From a virus, in the IMG/VR virus record IMGVR_UViG_3300025687_000414, positions 1-21,004 of that record: a DNA stretch of 21,004 nucleotides. One strand, given 5' to 3'. Each line of letters opens with the position of its first letter. Position 1 is the first letter of the stretch. The notes beneath the pieces were generated by a model that saw only the letters and a program-made list of their open reading frames with translations, did no database searches and was not told where the DNA came from. Position numbers and translations under genes: made by a program. Of this stretch, positions 3,465 through 18,939 are shown piece after piece.

Positions 3465-6176
3465 TTATGCGTCAGTGCCTAGAACTTCAGGTAGATTAAA
3501 TGATGCGGCATCCGGCACAACTACCGTGACTTTCGCGTTTGCGGTTGCGATCGAACCAAACACGCTAGAGCTCGTAAACGTCGAACGCCAAAGTTGATAC
3601 GTTGCCCCGCGAACCAAGTTTGTGAATTGTACCAGTCCCGTTGTCGCGGCACTTGTGGCGGTCCTAACTGTCGTATCCAGTGAGTCACCGGCCACACCCG
3701 GCCCCGCTGTCATCTGCATTGAGAATGTGACACCCGATTCTGGTGCGTAGTTTTCGTCGTAGCAGACCAGCACGCCCGTTGACGTGTCACTGCCGCTGCT
3801 CGGGGTGATGCTTGATTGTGCGATATCTTTATTCACTGTTGCATCTGCCGTCACGACAATTGTGCCGGTCTCGGATGTGTATCCCGCCTTGTAAATCGCG
3901 TAGCTGTAGGTCGCATCATCGAGGGCAAACACAGCATTACCGCTCGCATCAGTATCGACAACGAAAGTGTTGACGCCTTCCGTGAGTCTCACGCGTGCGT
4001 TTTCAAGGTTGGCTGGCGTGCCTGCCGTGTCCTTGACATTGACTGTGATAGTCCTGGCACCAGACCCGGCGACTGACGCAAAGTTGTCGTCAATGTCCTG
4101 GATTGTTTGCAGAGTGACTGCACTGGCCGCGTCGTCATTGTCAAAGAATTCATCAAAGTTTGCCGCGATTCGGCCTGCTGTGGTTTCAGCGATTGTTGTA
4201 CCAAGGAACTGCGTCACGTTGGCGTTGACCGTGCCTGTGACAGTTGCCTGATCGACATCGTCCACCGTCTTAGTCGTGGTCGTGTCCAGGTCGTAAAACT
4301 GCGATATGTTGTCAGCCAGATTTCCGGTAGAAGTTTCCGTTAATGCCGTACCCTTGACCTGTGTTACATTCGCATTGACTGTACCGGTCACCAATGCTGA
4401 CCCGATGTCGTCCTGAGTTTTCGTGCTTGCTCCGTCGTCGTTATCAAAGAACACGGAAGCGTTTTGAGCAAGCCGCCCTGATGTCGTTTCTGTAACTGCT
4501 GTCCCGAGCACCTGTGTAAGATTGGCGTTTACGGTGCCACTAACTGTGGCCGTCCCAATATCGTCAGCTGTTTTCGTGGTCGCTGCGTCTGCGTTGTCAA
4601 ACACGGTAGAAATGTTCGCAGCCAGACGACCGGCTGTCGTTTCCGTTAGTCCTGACCCCTTGATCTGCACTACATTGGCGTCAACGGTTCCGCTGACGGT
4701 TCCGCCGCCGATGTCATCTTGAGTCTTAGTGCTGTTCGAGTCGCCATTATCGAAGAACGTGTTGAAGTTCGCCACAATCCTTCCGCTCGTCGTTTCAGCA
4801 AGCGCTCCTCCGAGCACTTTCACCACGTCAACTGGCAAGTTTGTTAATGCGCCGCTGCTCGGCAAGTTGTCAGTAACAGCTTTAATGCCATCCACAACAG
4901 AGTCAATCGTATCCACCGAAGCTTGTGTTGCCAACGCAGTGAGGCCAGACCCTGCCGCTCCGATCTCCGCAGTGTCCACAAGAATCGCATCAACATTGCT
5001 GTCAATGGTGTCTACAGAAGCTTGCGTTGCAAGTGCAGTTAACCCAGACCCTGCCGCTCCGATCTCCGCAGTGTCCACAAGAATCGCATCAACATTGCTG
5101 TCAATGGTGTCTACAGAAGCTTGCGTTGCAAGTGCAGTTAACCCAGCACCTGCTGCACCGATCTCCGCAGTGTCAATCAGAATGTCATCTACAATTCCAT
5201 CAATGGTGTCCACGCTCGCCTGTGTCGCAAGGGCAGTGAGTCCAGCCCCTGCTGCTCCAATCTCTGCCGTGTCAACCAGGATCGAATCGACATTGGTGTC
5301 GATGACATCGACTGAGGCCTGGGTTGCCAACGCTGTGAGACCAGCACCTGCCGCTCCGATTTCCGCCGTATCAATAAGGATGGCATCTACGTTGGCATCA
5401 ATCGTTGCAATCTCATCATCAATGGTGGTGAGAGAAGCTGGAATGGTTGTACCTGTGTCGACCAAGATTGCATCCACAATGCCGTCGATTGTGTTCACAC
5501 TTGTCTGGGTTGCCAGGGCTGTTAATCCCGCTCCCGCTGTGCCGATCTCTGCCGTGTCAACCAGAATAGAATCTACAATCCCATCGATTGTATCGACACT
5601 AACTTGTGTGGCGAGAGCAGTTAATCCAGCACCAGCAGCACCAATCTCTGCAGTGTCAATCAGAATGGCATCGACAATCCCATCGATGGCTGCGATTTCA
5701 TTATCAATAGTCGTTAGGGAAGCAGGGATTGTTGTACCTGTATCAACGAGAATTGCGTCAACATTACCATCGATGACATCGACACTGGCCTGAGTCGCTA
5801 GAGTAGTGAGTCCAGCACCAGCTGCTCCGATTTCTGCGGTATCGATAAGGATGGAATCAACAATCCCGTCTATCGTGTCAACAGAAGCCTGAGTAGCCAA
5901 GCTGGCAATCGTTCCCGGGTAAACATTCAGGCTCTGAGTGATTGCCCCCGACAGCTTCATTGTAAAGAAGACATGGTCCGCATTGGTCTCTGCCTGCGTC
6001 GGGGCGTAGGTCCATTGCCCATTCCCCTCATGAGTCGACGTTCCGCCCCCAGTTGCCTGGGTGCCCCCATCTTTAGTGATATAAACCGTGGGCGTTCCGA
6101 TTGTGATCCCGGTCTCCCCATCGGTGGAGTCCACCATGAAAAAGCCAACAACTTGACTGGCGGTGTTCTTTAACAT
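3465..6176 (-). CDS. Repetitive tail fibre / tail surface protein, 903 aa
   Basis: This is the longest gene in the window. Residues 1-90 form an N-terminal module (QVVGFFMVDSTDGETG onward) of a type common at the start of phage tail proteins. About residues 94-430 hold roughly ten tandem units of about 33 residues built on VDTAEIGAAGAGLTALATQ and IDxxVDAIL, whose regular hydrophobic spacing suggests a trimeric fibrous shaft. About 440-697 hold five units of about 51 residues, of the type VTGTVNANVTQ...ETTAGRLAANxxxFFDN. Residues 700-903 look like beta-sandwich domains of the carboxypeptidase-regulatory type (ARVRLTEG, ALDDATYSYAIYKAGY), which may present a binding tip. The ATG at 6176 overlaps the previous stop as TGATG. 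The repeats predict copy-number variation. Confidence 0.75.
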   Translation of the reverse strand: MLKNTASQVVGFFMVDSTDGETGITIGTPTVYITKDGGTQATGGGTSTHEGNGQWTYAPTQAETNADHVFFTMKLSGAITQSLNVYPGTIASLATQASVDTIDGIVDSILIDTAEIGAAGAGLTTLATQASVDVIDGNVDAILVDTGTTIPASLTTIDNEIAAIDGIVDAILIDTAEIGAAGAGLTALATQVSVDTIDGIVDSILVDTAEIGTAGAGLTALATQTSVNTIDGIVDAILVDTGTTIPASLTTIDDEIATIDANVDAILIDTAEIGAAGAGLTALATQASVDVIDTNVDSILVDTAEIGAAGAGLTALATQASVDTIDGIVDDILIDTAEIGAAGAGLTALATQASVDTIDSNVDAILVDTAEIGAAGSGLTALATQASVDTIDSNVDAILVDTAEIGAAGSGLTALATQASVDTIDSVVDGIKAVTDNLPSSGALTNLPVDVVKVLGGALAETTSGRIVANFNTFFDNGDSNSTKTQDDIGGGTVSGTVDANVVQIKGSGLTETTAGRLAANISTVFDNADAATTKTADDIGTATVSGTVNANLTQVLGTAVTETTSGRLAQNASVFFDNDDGASTKTQDDIGSALVTGTVNANVTQVKGTALTETSTGNLADNISQFYDLDTTTTKTVDDVDQATVTGTVNANVTQFLGTTIAETTAGRIAANFDEFFDNDDAASAVTLQTIQDIDDNFASVAGSGARTITVNVKDTAGTPANLENARVRLTEGVNTFVVDTDASGNAVFALDDATYSYAIYKAGYTSETGTIVVTADATVNKDIAQSSITPSSGSDTSTGVLVCYDENYAPESGVTFSMQMTAGPGVAGDSLDTTVRTATSAATTGLVQFTNLVRGATYQLWRSTFTSSSVFGSIATANAKVTVVVPDAASFNLPEVLGTDA
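4090..4850 (-). repeat. Second tandem repeat array, five units of about 51 residues
   Basis: Five copies encode the pattern V(S/T)GTVNANVTQ, then GTxxTETTxGRLAxN, then xxFFDNDDxxSTKTxDDIG. The first copy has a degenerate start (LPVDVVKVLG) and the last a different end (AVTLQTIQDIDDN), as expected for capping units. The period is near 153 bases. This array is distinct in sequence from the shaft repeat upstream. Confidence 0.75.
4890..5905 (-). repeat. Diverged tandem repeat array of about 33-residue shaft units
   Basis: About ten units encode the alternating motifs TAEIGAAGAGLTALATQ and (V/I)DxIDxxVDxIL. Two units are variants in which the TAEIG segment is replaced by TGTTIPASLTTIDNEIA, four residues shorter in total. 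The DNA copies have diverged at synonymous positions apart from the exact pair at 4945-5142. The conservation at protein level fits selection for a regular fibre. Confidence 0.8.
4945..5142 (-). repeat. Exact 99-base tandem duplication in the fibre shaft
   Basis: Two successive 99-base units (4945-5043 and 5044-5142) appear identical base for base when read side by side. Each encodes one 33-residue shaft repeat. Neighbouring units encode similar proteins but differ at many synonymous positions, so this pair is a recent duplication. The number of units is in frame and free to change without breaking the gene. Confidence 0.85.
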
Positions 6177-6805
6177 CAGTGCAGCACTCCTGGGGCCCAT
6201 ATTCTATTTGAGTTGAAACTCCAAGCCGGGTTGAACTCGCCGCCAATGACTTCGGTTCCGTCGATTGTCAGTCGCACCCAATCAATATCAAAGTCAGCCT
6301 GTGCCCCGTTGATCGATCCAACAGCGATATTAAATTCAAACAGCGACGATCTTGTCGCCGCACCGAATGAACCAGACCAACTGGCTTGGTAGCTGGTGAA
6401 TGAAGTCGCTGATACTGTGACTGTATCGACGGATGTCCATGATCCGCCATCGATCCGGACTTTGAAGTCGACATCAAGCGGGTCAGTGTCAATCCTCGCC
6501 TTGAAGTTCAGTGTCAGGGAGGTGATGTCTGAATAGATACTAACCGGTGTTTCGCAGCCGAATGTTCGGTTCGTATTATCCTGCGAGGCTTTCCAATCGA
6601 TCCATAGCAGATCCCCCTCAGTGACAATGTTGGCGTATGATGGGCCGCTGTTAGGTGTAAGCGTTTCGGCCATTGGGCTTCGCTCCCGTTTCGGTGTGGG
6701 CTTCGGTAGTGGTTCAGGTGTCAATGATTGGCGGCAACCAATCAGCAACAACAGGAGTACCACTGCCGCTGCTTGTGTTCGTTTTGTCATGAGGTTGTGT
6801 GTCAT
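6176..6805 (-). CDS. Lipoprotein-like tail-region protein with possible internal start, 209 aa
   Basis: From the ATG at 6805 the protein opens with a bacterial lipoprotein signal: basic MTKRT, a hydrophobic core AAAVVLLLLLIG and a lipobox Cys (residue 24, LLIGC). A Pro-rich linker follows (LTPEPLPKPTPK, 28-39), then a beta-rich domain (about 45-209, with alternating DVDFKVRIDGG and FEFNIAVG strands) that resembles a jelly roll. The start forms an ATGA overlap with the previous stop. A second ATG at 6673 (Met45) has a perfect GGGAG element nine bases upstream and would give a soluble 165-residue form starting exactly at the beta domain. A lipoprotein in a tail operon is unusual. Function unknown; a surface or exclusion role for one form is speculation. 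Confidence 0.6.
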   Translation of the reverse strand: MTHNLMTKRTQAAAVVLLLLLIGCRQSLTPEPLPKPTPKRERSPMAETLTPNSGPSYANIVTEGDLLWIDWKASQDNTNRTFGCETPVSIYSDITSLTLNFKARIDTDPLDVDFKVRIDGGSWTSVDTVTVSATSFTSYQASWSGSFGAATRSSLFEFNIAVGSINGAQADFDIDWVRLTIDGTEVIGGEFNPAWSFNSNRIWAPGVLH

Positions 6806-14987: not shown

Positions 14988-15019
14988 GTTTGGCAACTCC
15001 TTATTGTGTGAGCAAAGTA

Positions 15020-15043
15020 CCGGGGCTCGACATTGAGCCCCGG
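15020..15043 (-). other. Hairpin after the capsid gene
   Basis: A perfect 9-bp inverted repeat, CCGGGGCTC/GAGCCCCGG, with a 6-base loop lies 15 bases after the capsid stop. The minus-strand continuation is TACTTTGC, so there is no T-tract. A stable 3' barrier protecting the capsid message, or a weak terminator, is more likely than a full stop of transcription. Confidence 0.65.
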
Positions 15044-15057
15044 CGATTCAGTTCGTG

Positions 15058-16422
15058 CTACGCAGCCTGCTGCAGGTACTTGACTGGGTTGGTTCCCGCG
15101 TCGAGCAGATCCCCATCAAAACGCATGATGGCAACGAACGCAACCTGTCCGTAGTCGGCATAACGTTCGTCCATACGAACCAACGTGACGCCGAGCACTT
15201 CGCGAACAAGGTACTTCGACAACGCTCCGTAAAGCACTGTCTTAGCACTGTTCGTGATGCTGGCCATGTCCTGATTGATAATCACGCCGCTGTTGAACAA
15301 CAGGTCAGGATCGCCAGCCGTTGCACCGGGTTGCCAGTGGTAGACACTGTCGGTGCTTTTCAGCTTGCGTACGTAGTTGCGAGTCGCGTCGTTAAACATC
15401 CACATCGCGCCGGAACGGTAAGCCGGATCAACAGATGCCTGAAGGTCAAGCATTTCATCCATCGTGATTGCTGATGCACTGGCAGCAGTTTTGCCGAGCG
15501 TGGCAGCGGTCACGATACCGTTTGGCTGGCCTGAACCAGTACCAGTCGTGCCATGCGTATTCTGGATTCGCCCGAGTCGCTCGCCGAGAAGCGAACCGAC
15601 AACAGAACCCATATTGAACGCACTATCTTGCATCAGCTCGGTGCTGATTCGGACAATCTTTGACGTGTACTTGTACGCATCGAGCGTCAAGTTGCCGAAG
15701 GTCACATCCTGTTCAGCGTCCTGGACGTTTTCAGACAACAGGGCACCTGTGTTGCTGGTGTCGTTGACTGTCGGCCAGTCCAGAGCAGAACCTGTCGCCG
15801 TCCGCACGATTGTCGCAGCCTGACGTACACCACCAAACTGAAGCAGTGCCCGCTCAAGGTTCGTCACGAAGCCCGGGAAAGTAGTGTGACCACCTGCCGT
15901 GCTCGTGCCGATGCTCTGAGCGTTCTGGAAGTCCGCCAGATTCTTCGGTGCCTCATTGTGCAGCGGGATGTACAGGCCACCGGCCTGGCTGTCCCAAGAA
16001 CACCCGGAAGCCTTGAGCTGTTCCTGCGATTCGGGATTGCTCATGACGCCCGCTCGGCCATTCGCTGCCCAGTCCTGAAGGACTGAATTGACGGCCTCAA
16101 GCCGATTGATTGCAGGCTTGTCGCCCGGCTTGCCACCCTGTGCAGCCCGGATCTTGTCGAAGTCGCCAGCGTTCTGTAGTGCTGCGAGTTCAGCCTCGGC
16201 GGCTTCCTGTCGCTTCACTCGTTCTGCTGCGGCCTGTTCAGCCTTGTGCAGTTCGTCAATATGATCCTTGAGCTTGTCTGCGTCGTTGTGCATCGCATCA
16301 AAGCGTGCATTCTCGTCGTCGGTAAGACCGCCGTGATCTTTTTCGCACTCGGCCAGAAACGCCCGAGCGTCATTGATCAGCTTGACACGCTGATCAACCA
16401 GTTCCTGAATAGGAGTTGTCAT
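15058..16422 (-). CDS. Major capsid protein, HK97 fold, 454 aa
   Basis: Residues about 5-100 form a charged coiled coil (RVKLINDARAFLAECEKDHG, HIDELHKAEQAAAERVKRQ), the scaffolding delta domain that the adjacent protease should remove during maturation. The remainder is a typical HK97-type capsid: GGHTTFPGFVTNLERALLQF, VQDAEQDVTFGNLTLDAYKY, RISTELMQDSAFNMGSVVGS, the TGTGSGQPNGI loop, and a C-terminal DYGQVAFVAIMRFDGDLLD. The ATG at 16422 is chosen over one at 16452 because GGGA lies about six bases upstream. That site is enclosed in a hairpin and preceded by a terminator-like stem, so expression may be regulated at the leader. Confidence 0.93.
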   Translation of the reverse strand: MTTPIQELVDQRVKLINDARAFLAECEKDHGGLTDDENARFDAMHNDADKLKDHIDELHKAEQAAAERVKRQEAAEAELAALQNAGDFDKIRAAQGGKPGDKPAINRLEAVNSVLQDWAANGRAGVMSNPESQEQLKASGCSWDSQAGGLYIPLHNEAPKNLADFQNAQSIGTSTAGGHTTFPGFVTNLERALLQFGGVRQAATIVRTATGSALDWPTVNDTSNTGALLSENVQDAEQDVTFGNLTLDAYKYTSKIVRISTELMQDSAFNMGSVVGSLLGERLGRIQNTHGTTGTGSGQPNGIVTAATLGKTAASASAITMDEMLDLQASVDPAYRSGAMWMFNDATRNYVRKLKSTDSVYHWQPGATAGDPDLLFNSGVIINQDMASITNSAKTVLYGALSKYLVREVLGVTLVRMDERYADYGQVAFVAIMRFDGDLLDAGTNPVKYLQQAA

Positions 16423-16423
16423 T

Positions 16424-16463
16424 GTTGGTCCCTTTATGTTTGGTGTTTTCACCAGAGACCAAC
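16424..16463 (-). promoter_or_regulatory. Hairpin enclosing the capsid ribosome binding site
   Basis: On the minus strand GTTGGTCTC (16463-16455) pairs with GGGACCAAC (16432-16424) over nine positions, one of them a wobble. The second arm contains the GGGA ribosome site and ends one base before the capsid ATG. An inner GGTG-AAAA-CACC hairpin (16442-16453) sits in the loop. If it forms, it should limit capsid translation until melted or displaced. Confidence 0.6.
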
Positions 16464-16464
16464 G

Positions 16465-16521
16465 AAAAAAGCAGCGTTGACCACTGGCGAAGAATAGTCT
16501 TCGTCAAAGGCCAACGCTGCT
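16465..16521 (-). terminator. Terminator-like hairpin upstream of the capsid gene
   Basis: Read on the minus strand, AGCAGCGTTG (16521-16512) pairs perfectly with CAACGCTGCT (16479-16470). The stem continues inward with partial pairing and closes with CGAAGA/TCTTCG around a 4-base loop (16488-16503). Counting the first T with the stem's final base, six T follow (16470-16465). This is a textbook rho-independent terminator shape, yet it stands between the protease and the capsid gene in a continuous operon, so attenuation or antitermination is implied if it works. Confidence 0.65.
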
Positions 16522-16541
16522 CTTGCTTTGTTGCCGTTACG

Positions 16542-16575
16542 CGGTGAATTGCCCGCTCATGCAGACGTTTCACCG
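16542..16575 (-). other. First hairpin of the capsid leader
   Basis: A perfect 7-bp inverted repeat, CGGTGAA/TTCACCG, with a 20-base loop lies about 25 bases after the protease stop. The loop contains the start of a 7-codon mini-ORF (MSGQFTA, 16560-16537) with no visible ribosome site. It is the first of three hairpins in the 178-base gap. Confidence 0.5.
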
Positions 16576-16600
16576 ATTAGATTTTGCCACACTTTAACTG

Positions 16601-17314
16601 TTATGACTCCGCTGTCAACAACATTTTTGCTTTTGCCAATCGCAAAGCCTCACGGGACGATTTTGGCAGTTCCGGCCCGGTTCTGACGGTTATTGTCTTG
16701 GCCAGTGCCGCCAGTTCAGCGAGTTCGTCCCGATCTTCAATTGCCTTGGCGTAGAATTCGCCGAATGTGCGAGCAGTGACAGTCTTGTTTGGCGTCACTT
16801 TATCGGCGAATCCGTGTTTTTTGGCATCGGCGGCAGTGAGCCACTTTTCACCTGCCATCCAATCCAGCAATTGTTTACGATCCTGCCCCGTCCGAGCTGA
16901 ATACACGTCAACGAGCGTGTCGCGGATTGAATCAAGTAAGTCTGCGGTCTGCAATGTGTCCGCTGCCGCGTCTCGCAGGTCTTCAGCCGTGCCGAACGCC
17001 AACGCACTCGGTCCCATTGGATTGTGAATCATCAGCCGGCTCGCTTGACCCATTGTGATGGTATCGCCAGCCATCGCAATGACTGAAGCGATCGATGCTG
17101 CCACGCCTTGTATGACAATATGATTTTCACCTGGCCGATTCACCAGCGTCTGGTAGATCGTGAGCCCGTCAAACACGCTTCCACCGGGACTGTTCACATT
17201 GATTGTGAGTGGCTCATCCCCGGCAACGTCTTTGACCATGTCGGCCCACCGCTGTGAGGTTACGCCATCTTCGCCGTCGTAGCCAATCGGCCCGTAGATG
17301 TTAACTTCCGCCAT
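16601..17314 (-). CDS. Head maturation protease, ClpP-like (S14), 237 aa
   Basis: The protein has the ClpP fold signature of phage prohead proteases: NSPGGSVFDGLTIYQTL (residues 41-57, oxyanion region), GVAASIASVIAMAG with the nucleophile Ser74, and RLMIHNPMG with the catalytic His97. A candidate acid, Asp151, lies within LLDWMAGEKWLTAADA. It should cleave the capsid delta domain and the head interior proteins. The ATG at 17314 forms a TAATG overlap with the portal stop and has AGGGGAAG upstream. A longer reading from 17377 would add 21 His-rich residues encoded inside the portal gene. The C-terminal 60 residues are helical and may act as a capsid-targeting region. Confidence 0.9.
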   Translation of the reverse strand: MAEVNIYGPIGYDGEDGVTSQRWADMVKDVAGDEPLTINVNSPGGSVFDGLTIYQTLVNRPGENHIVIQGVAASIASVIAMAGDTITMGQASRLMIHNPMGPSALAFGTAEDLRDAAADTLQTADLLDSIRDTLVDVYSARTGQDRKQLLDWMAGEKWLTAADAKKHGFADKVTPNKTVTARTFGEFYAKAIEDRDELAELAALAKTITVRTGPELPKSSREALRLAKAKMLLTAES

Positions 17315-18939
17315 TATTCTTCCCCTGTGATTGTGGTTGTGAGTATTTCGCTCCTGCCGGTCCATGTTGCCACGCACTCAGCCACAGCACCTGCCAGACT
17401 GGTTGCCGTGCAACTGCCAGCAACTTCCATGAGTTCATGCTTTGATTGTGCCGCGTGTTTTACAAATGCTTTCTGGACCTCTGGTGTTGTGCTGTTGTGT
17501 TCTATCCAGTCGGCATAAAACGAGTCAGCCCACGCGATGAAGTTGTCTTCCTTCTGTGCCGCTTTGACGACTCGATCACGCTCGATCTGAGTTGCCTTGT
17601 CAACACTGGATTGCACAAACGCACGCAACAAGCGATTGTTTGTGTCAGGTTCCGTCGTGTCGTTGTTGTTGTCCTCGTCTTCCTGTGGAGGCTCAACTAC
17701 TGACTGTTGCTGCACCTCGTCTGATTCTTCACCGATCTCAACAAGGTTGCCTGGTCGGTATCGCCTATCGCCCTTTTCGCCAATCGTTGGCATATTCTCC
17801 GACCGCAGGACATCGTTAATAGTTAGGTTTCCATGCTCCTGCAGCCGGCTGTAGTAGTTTGCCCGGTCATTGGCCGACATTCGCAATAGTGCTTTGCGAT
17901 TGAATTCGATGAAGTGGGTATCGTTTGCCTTTTGCGTGGCACTCAGCAGTTTTAAACAGCATTCCATTTCCCACTTTTTCAGCCATCGATCCAGACACTC
18001 ATCGAGGTAGCTTTGATTCTCCGCCTCAAGACTGCTGTATGATGTCTTGGTATCGTCACCTAGTTTGTGTGACGGGCAACCGATGATGTTCGCCACTGTC
18101 GCGCGAACCTCGTACTGTCGTGTCTGTAGGAACTGGGCCTGCTCCGGTGCAATCGTCATCTGCTGAAACTTGACGCCATCCTGTAACAGAGCCACTTTGT
18201 GCGAGTTCGTAATCCCGGCGTACATGGAGTCCCACGCCGCTCGAGTGTTCCGCACTTTCTCCTCGCTAAAGTGCCCGGGAACCATCATCAGACCGCTCAT
18301 GTTGGAACCCTGCCCGAAAAACTTGGCCCCGAACTTCTGAGCAGCCATACCAACGCCCAACGCGTCAGCCATCAGCGACACAATGTCATAGCCTGTCAGC
18401 CCATCGCTCGACAGCCCGCGAATGTGGAACACGTCGCGAGCCATAAGCTTGATTTCGTCACCGGCGATTGTTGTGACATAATACAGCGATCCATCGAACA
18501 TCACCGGGTAGGTTTCCGATGGATTCAGAATCAGCATCTCAACCGGTTCCATGCGGTTATTTCGCTGAATCGCCGCATACCCATTGCCCCGCAGTAATGC
18601 ATGTGCTGTCAGGCACTCCCGGAACGTTACGGCGTCGGATGTTTTCGATGTTTGGCGTGTCAGTAGTTGCCATGCGGGATGCCGTTTATCCGTCTCTTTG
18701 CCCCCGTCCTGCAGTCGCCGGTACACGTTCAACGGCAATTTCGCCACGTCGCCCGCCACTAAATTAATGGCTCGCCACAACGGTGGGTAACCCATCGCGC
18801 TTGTGGGCGTCACTGACACCCCGCTGTCCGATGCCCCACCACCGAATATACTCTGCCACACCGCTGGATCTCTCAAACTGATGTTTGGGTTTTCCAGTGG
18901 TGATGCGTTAACGATCAATTCCGTCACACCGTATTCCAT
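17314..18939 (-). CDS. Portal protein, HK97 family, 541 aa
   Basis: The core is a classical HK97/lambda-type portal: WRAINLVAGDVAKLPLNVYR (about residues 55-74), ALLRGNGYAAIQRN, DVFHIRGLSSDGLTGYD, GAKFFGQGSNMSGLMMVPG and the conserved VANIIGCPSHKLGD segment. It forms the dodecameric ring through which the terminase pumps DNA. After the core, from about residue 400, there is an acidic low-complexity linker (PPQEDEDNNNDTTEPD) and a helical extension of about 110 residues ending in a beta-type tail, making it longer than typical portals (about 400-430 residues). The ATG at 18939 follows the terminase stop by nine bases and has an AGGGG ribosome site. Confidence 0.92.
   Translation of the reverse strand: MEYGVTELIVNASPLENPNISLRDPAVWQSIFGGGASDSGVSVTPTSAMGYPPLWRAINLVAGDVAKLPLNVYRRLQDGGKETDKRHPAWQLLTRQTSKTSDAVTFRECLTAHALLRGNGYAAIQRNNRMEPVEMLILNPSETYPVMFDGSLYYVTTIAGDEIKLMARDVFHIRGLSSDGLTGYDIVSLMADALGVGMAAQKFGAKFFGQGSNMSGLMMVPGHFSEEKVRNTRAAWDSMYAGITNSHKVALLQDGVKFQQMTIAPEQAQFLQTRQYEVRATVANIIGCPSHKLGDDTKTSYSSLEAENQSYLDECLDRWLKKWEMECCLKLLSATQKANDTHFIEFNRKALLRMSANDRANYYSRLQEHGNLTINDVLRSENMPTIGEKGDRRYRPGNLVEIGEESDEVQQQSVVEPPQEDEDNNNDTTEPDTNNRLLRAFVQSSVDKATQIERDRVVKAAQKEDNFIAWADSFYADWIEHNSTTPEVQKAFVKHAAQSKHELMEVAGSCTATSLAGAVAECVATWTGRSEILTTTITGEE

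Follow-up and report, generated by a model that had tools for sequence, protein, structure and literature searches.

The Bacillus subtilis trp leader (TRAP) combines a terminator, which acts on transcription, with a hairpin that hides the Shine-Dalgarno (SD) sequence of the first gene. The Escherichia coli trp attenuator has four strands with the alternative pairings 1:2, 2:3 and 3:4, the last of which is the terminator. In HK022 (put RNA) and lambda (qut/Q), a promoter-proximal phage RNA or site decides terminator read-through.

Here we describe a leader that precedes a phage capsid gene. Like the B. subtilis trp leader, it pairs a predicted terminator with an SD hairpin; however, the terminator comes first, its descending strand is linked to the SD hairpin by a 2:3 helix, and the gene that follows encodes a capsid protein. 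The four strands and the 1:2, 2:3 and 3:4 alternatives recall the E. coli trp attenuator, although in the capsid leader the predicted terminator is formed by 1:2 and the SD lock by 3:4, and no leader peptide is conserved. As in the put and qut/Q systems, the leader as proposed below would be a promoter-proximal element that decides read-through. By analogy, it appears to work like the known dual transcription/translation leaders, and it is a member of none of the families tested. Rfam, whose families take in the known riboswitches, gave no matches at the gathering score in the window (the whole stretch of DNA analyzed, 21,004 nt) and 20 related loci, and the matches of a permissive scan fell far below gathering, among them a mir-242-like match that was set aside as a hairpin artefact.

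Each phage particle takes hundreds of capsid subunits, which must be produced at the proper moment, yet the capsid gene usually shares its operon with packaging genes that are in low demand. How the ratio of capsid to packaging proteins is set is little known in phages outside model systems. A leader made of a promoter-like site, a terminator and an SD lock, conserved across an uncultured clade and travelling with the capsid gene when the protease upstream differs, would be a concrete and testable mechanism. It would also give annotators a new RNA family and might serve as a part for tight on/off expression.

Elements of the leader in the window

The window is a 21-kb virus record whose head and packaging operon lies on the minus strand in the order small terminase, large terminase, portal, ClpP-type head maturation protease and major capsid protein. 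The protease gene (16601-17377, minus strand; PF00574, E 1.2e-27; PHROG head maturation protease) ends at 16601. The major capsid gene (15058-16422, minus strand; HK97 type, PF05065, E 4.5e-55) starts at 16422 with an ATG at 16422-16420, leaving a gap of 178 nt (16423-16600). The initial annotation had described three consecutive hairpins in this gap and proposed folding the region as a check. All of the features that it listed are present on the minus strand at the positions given, and the fold of 16400-16610 (minus strand) is well above chance, with a minimum free energy (MFE) of -83.1 kcal/mol (z -7.66), a value that none of 200 shuffles reached. We considered and rejected a protein hidden in the gap, as the frame common to the window and one relative (L003) is broken by a TAG in another (L024).

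To the features already listed we add a sigma-70-type promoter-like site, TTGACA - 16 nt - TAAAGT (16591-16618, minus strand; 10 of 12 consensus matches), which lies in the 3' end of the protease gene and overlaps the upstream end of the gap. If this site is active as a promoter in the cell, as its sequence suggests, the predicted transcript would begin just 5' of the first hairpin. This hairpin, P1 (16542-16575, minus strand), is formed in the MFE fold by CGGTGAA (16575-16569) and TTCACCG (16548-16542). The 75-nt region that contains it has a z of -2.27 in the window. Because the mean z is just -0.83 across 39 curated leaders, the evidence for P1 is weaker than that for the two hairpins that follow (P3 and P4), and as a structure P1 is weakly supported across the family.

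P3 (16470-16521, minus strand) is a terminator-shaped hairpin found both in the MFE fold and in a covariance-model match. Its ascending half is strand 1 (16521-16497) and its descending half strand 2 (16496-16470). With an energy of -35 to -38 kcal/mol in the window and a U6 tail (TTTTTT, 16465-16470, minus strand), it has the form of an intrinsic (Rho-independent) terminator, in which a stable GC-rich stem is directly followed by a U tract. P3 is thus a predicted intrinsic terminator, at which transcription would end. P4 (16425-16463, minus strand; MFE fold) is a hairpin of 9-10 bp that buries the capsid SD. Strand 3 makes up its 5' arm and loop, and strand 4 carries the SD AGGGA (16433-16429), 5' of the capsid ATG. 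The SD is paired in the predicted hairpin, and the fold suggests that P4 may occlude it in the cell.

The pairing of strand 2 (16489-16475) with strand 3 (16464-16450) was confirmed exactly as it had been claimed, with 11 Watson-Crick pairs, three wobbles and one mismatch. The alternative helix is in fact two pairs longer, joining 16491-16475 to 16464-16448 (16448-16491 overall, minus strand) with 16 of 17 positions paired. The energy of this 2:3 duplex is -20.9 kcal/mol, a value equalled or bettered by 21 of 10,000 shuffles of strand 3.

Just 3' of the capsid gene there is a further strong hairpin, GCCGGGGCTC..GAGCCCCGGT (15019-15044, minus strand; -21.6 kcal/mol), with a weak U tail, and hairpins occur at the same place in several relatives. 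Since a strong hairpin directly follows the capsid gene in the window and in these relatives, the gene may be its own transcription unit, closed by the hairpin at 15019-15044. Elsewhere in the window, the ORF at 3465-6200 (minus strand) encodes a 911-aa protein that has no PHROG match and includes five tandem copies of a 99-bp (33-residue) unit at 4902-5394.

Relatives of the leader and conservation of its pairings

Searches for the capsid in IMG/VR and GTDB yielded 257 loci where its start could be read, of which 163 are nonredundant. Dozens of uncultured HK97-type phages have the leader layout ahead of their capsid gene. In many relatives the gap before the capsid gene measures 140-450 nt, and a strong hairpin of the P3 type precedes the capsid start in 86 of the 163 nonredundant loci. 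Down to about 40% capsid identity the order of elements is kept: promoter-like site, P1, P3 containing an inner stem, a U-rich tail, P4 whose 3' arm carries the SD, and ATG. Promoter-like sites with at least 9 of 12 matches lie upstream of 15 of the 39 curated leaders, versus 1.3 expected from shuffles. The T content after P3 is bipartite in the same 39 leaders, with fractions of 0.69, 0.74 and 0.56 at positions +1 to +3 and of 0.67 and 0.62 at +7 and +8, versus 0.20 overall; some leaders, such as L009 and L048, have poor U tails. The last 42 nt before the ATG have a mean z of -2.12 in the 39 leaders versus -0.56 in 75 related capsid genes that lack a leader hairpin.

The leader appears to go with the capsid gene and not with the upstream neighbour, because the upstream gene differs (ClpP-type protease in the window, S78 protease or other in relatives). 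Ten upstream ORFs were checked, all from distant relatives: six are S78 prohead proteases, one matches a formyl transferase domain and three are without a Pfam match. The formyl transferase domain (PF00551, E 1.5e-12) is found in place of a protease in the ORF upstream of the leader and capsid gene of L072 (839-1483).

A motif, GA[CT]A, often within GGCGACA, is located after P1 and 8-50 nt 5' of P3 in 22 of the 39 leaders (10.5 expected), and GAG before P1 is seemingly common in the wider family, as judged by eye. P1 and the GA[CT]A motif between P1 and P3 form a candidate binding site for a trigger.

Two covariance models were built, R1 from 6 distant leaders and R2, refined, from 14, with no sequences of the window clade in either. 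Both models match the window at a single place (16420-16519, minus strand; 25 bits, E 0.002). In other contigs, the sense matches, down to an E of about 0.01, end at or near the capsid start, and the antisense matches overlap the same palindromic hairpins. Across 24 whole records, good matches are confined to one site in each. A second, weak match in L124 (7036-7090), just 3' of the capsid gene, is a plain terminator-like hairpin. The leaders of L027 and L028, which belong to the wider clade of the window, are less clear, and L027 has no R2 match.

MAFFT misplaced strand 1 when aligning distant leaders, and covariance-model alignments and alignment-free duplex tests were used instead. We compared ten pairings among five segments (S0-S4) with swapped partners and shuffles in the 39 curated leaders, which represent 34 sequence clusters. 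Only S1:S2, S2:S3 and S3:S4 exceed both swaps and shuffles. The seven other combinations (S0:S1, S0:S2, S0:S3, S0:S4, S1:S3, S1:S4 and S2:S4) are at chance in the 39 leaders. The three pairings put forward in the initial annotation (1:2, 3:4 and 2:3) are thus the ones kept above the controls in these leaders. An upstream RNA strand that could act as antiterminator by pairing with strand 1 (S0:S1) was at chance within 70 nt in these leaders. In the larger set of 86 leaders, the 2:3 pairing has a mean z of -1.58 (44% with p<0.05) versus 0.13 for 1:3 (7%). The same 2:3 test on 881 other strong hairpins from the same contigs gave a mean z of -0.10 (6% with p<0.05).

The pairing is kept while the sequence changes. 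With UCG of strand 2 and CGA of strand 3 taken as anchors, 27 of 47 leaders pair at the three positions that follow, versus 11% of swaps, and the paired triplets come in 11 different combinations (e.g., CCU/AGG, UGC/GCA, CCG/CGG and CUG/CAG). The left (upper) part of the 2:3 helix, UUCGCC/GGCGAG, has 16 paired double changes in a covariance-model alignment that was not fitted to 2:3, where 1000 row swaps average 5.7 and never exceed 13; because related rows push such counts upward, we read this excess as support and not as a probability. Compensatory changes in related phages, whose absence would have counted against the initial annotation, are therefore present in this upper part. The right (lower) part, GGG/CCC, which cannot coexist with the SD stem, does not vary and so yields no covariation signal either way. 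The energies of both pairings are biased towards the sense strand (p 4e-5 for 1:2 and p 0.011 for 2:3), and the selected molecule is therefore the RNA of the capsid strand.

A proposed double lock on capsid synthesis and competing readings

In the full-length RNA, the 2:3 helix is worse than the closed state (1:2 plus 3:4) by a median of 14.8 kcal/mol. When strand 1 is removed, 2:3 wins in about half of the leaders, with mean pair probabilities of 0.7-0.97 in many of them; in the window, P4 still wins. The strands are made in the order 1, 2, U tract, 3, 4, and the terminator forms before strand 3 exists. Because strand 3 is made after the U tract, 2:3 is not itself an antiterminator. As the closed state is the more stable by about 15 kcal/mol, opening the leader would need strand 1 to be blocked or removed by some trigger. 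This trigger does not seem to be a visible RNA rearrangement, since no upstream strand competes for strand 1. The switch suggested in the initial annotation therefore stands in part: 1:2, 3:4 and 2:3 are all kept and the upper 2:3 helix covaries, but 2:3 is strongly disfavoured in the intact RNA and its lower part is invariant.

We propose that the leader is a cis-acting double-lock attenuator of the capsid gene, a reading whose chances we judge to be about even. The RNA would start at the promoter at the end of the protease gene or read in from upstream. By default, strands 1 and 2 would form the intrinsic terminator P3, and in transcripts that leak through, strands 3 and 4 would form P4 and hide the SD, so that capsid synthesis would be shut at two levels, by termination at P3 and by the SD lock of P4. 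A trigger, for which a bound protein, a modified RNA polymerase or RNA cleavage are candidates, would keep strand 1 off strand 2, and termination would fail. The freed strand 2 could then pair with strand 3 ahead of strand 4, or in its place, and the ribosome site would be exposed. The 2:3 helix would in this way couple read-through to translation, with capsid made from properly activated transcripts only. On this reading the leader RNA would switch in the cell, and it may tune capsid dosage.

The leader probably does act as an on/off switch of capsid production, one so far unreported, and it likely represents a new RNA family with a double-lock attenuator mechanism. More tentatively, and with odds that we put below even, it may belong to an RNA family that is widespread among phages yet undescribed, in which one conserved alternative helix links antitermination to capsid translation, with a late-infection factor or free capsid protein as the trigger.

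A static architecture, in which a terminator or insulator is followed by an SD hairpin and nothing switches, would account for the far greater stability of the closed state. The 2:3 complementarity would then be a compact tertiary contact (loop-invading or kissing) of P3 with the P4 loop, or would merely follow from the likeness of the two hairpins. Most of the covarying left part of 2:3 falls within the P4 loop, where pairing could leave the SD stem closed; of the strand-3 bases engaged in 2:3, 243 are free in P4 and 282 pair with the SD strand. The right part is invariant. However, it offers no reason for double changes that restore 2:3 pairing, and a contact through the left helix would still require the inner P3 stem to open. 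Moreover, the 2:3 pairing runs on through the P4 stem in nearly every leader. We consider a static leader rather unlikely.

Removal of strand 1 could also result from processing of the RNase III type, in which the P3 stem is cut in read-through RNA, strand 1 is lost, 2:3 becomes a stable 5' hairpin, and the SD is open on the processed capsid mRNA. The long P3 stem with its asymmetric internal loop has the general form of phage RNase III sites (T7), and the high 2:3 pair probabilities calculated for many leaders without strand 1 agree with such a product. The kept U tail points to termination instead, and the persistence of P4 in the window after strand-1 removal also argues against processing, which we regard as improbable.

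The promoter enrichment and the terminator-shaped end would equally suit a separate phage small RNA, composed of the promoter, P1 and the terminator, that lies before the capsid gene by chance. This is very improbable, given that P4, which is conserved, and the 2:3 pairing tie the element to the start codon of the capsid gene and that good matches occur at one place per genome, adjoining the capsid start. Finally, a ribosome-mediated attenuator of the trp type, with a leader peptide over strand 1, is scarcely credible and was rejected: the window has a short ORF (MSGQFTA) in P1, but SD-preceded small ORFs that end in P3 are no commoner than in shuffles (6 of 39 leaders versus 9.2).

Cultured phages and simpler terminators before capsid genes

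The leader was not found in a cultured phage: none turned up whose capsid protein is more than about 36% identical over its full length, and the gap measures 12-95 nt in the four records inspected. The best partial match is to Vibrio phages (42% capsid identity over 66%, 12-nt gap). The leader may so far be undescribed because no cultured phage was found to exceed this full-length identity. A literature search whose scope left out preprints and most subscription papers, and which does not prove absence, turned up no description of a leader of this kind.

Paraburkholderia-type prophages and Halomonas phage vB_HmeY_H4907 have, as in the leader, a terminator-shaped hairpin with a T run between the protease and capsid genes. 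Unlike in the leader, this hairpin is short and simple, and the prophage loci L104, L105, L107 and L108 are without 2:3 pairing (z 0.2 to 0.8). In these four loci, from a Phenylobacterium MAG (L104), Paraburkholderia (L105 and L107) and a Rudaea MAG (L108), the short terminator and T run occupy the 3' part of the gap. In L105 and L108, an outer helix rich in GC (CGCGCCTCGCGCA ... TGCGCGAGCG) surrounds the terminator. The Paraburkholderia strains are isolates, and the simpler form of the terminator is thus testable in the laboratory. In the cultured Halomonas phage (L119, 1935-2001), the terminator AGCCGCC..GGGCGGTTTTTTT is positioned directly 5' of the capsid ribosome site.
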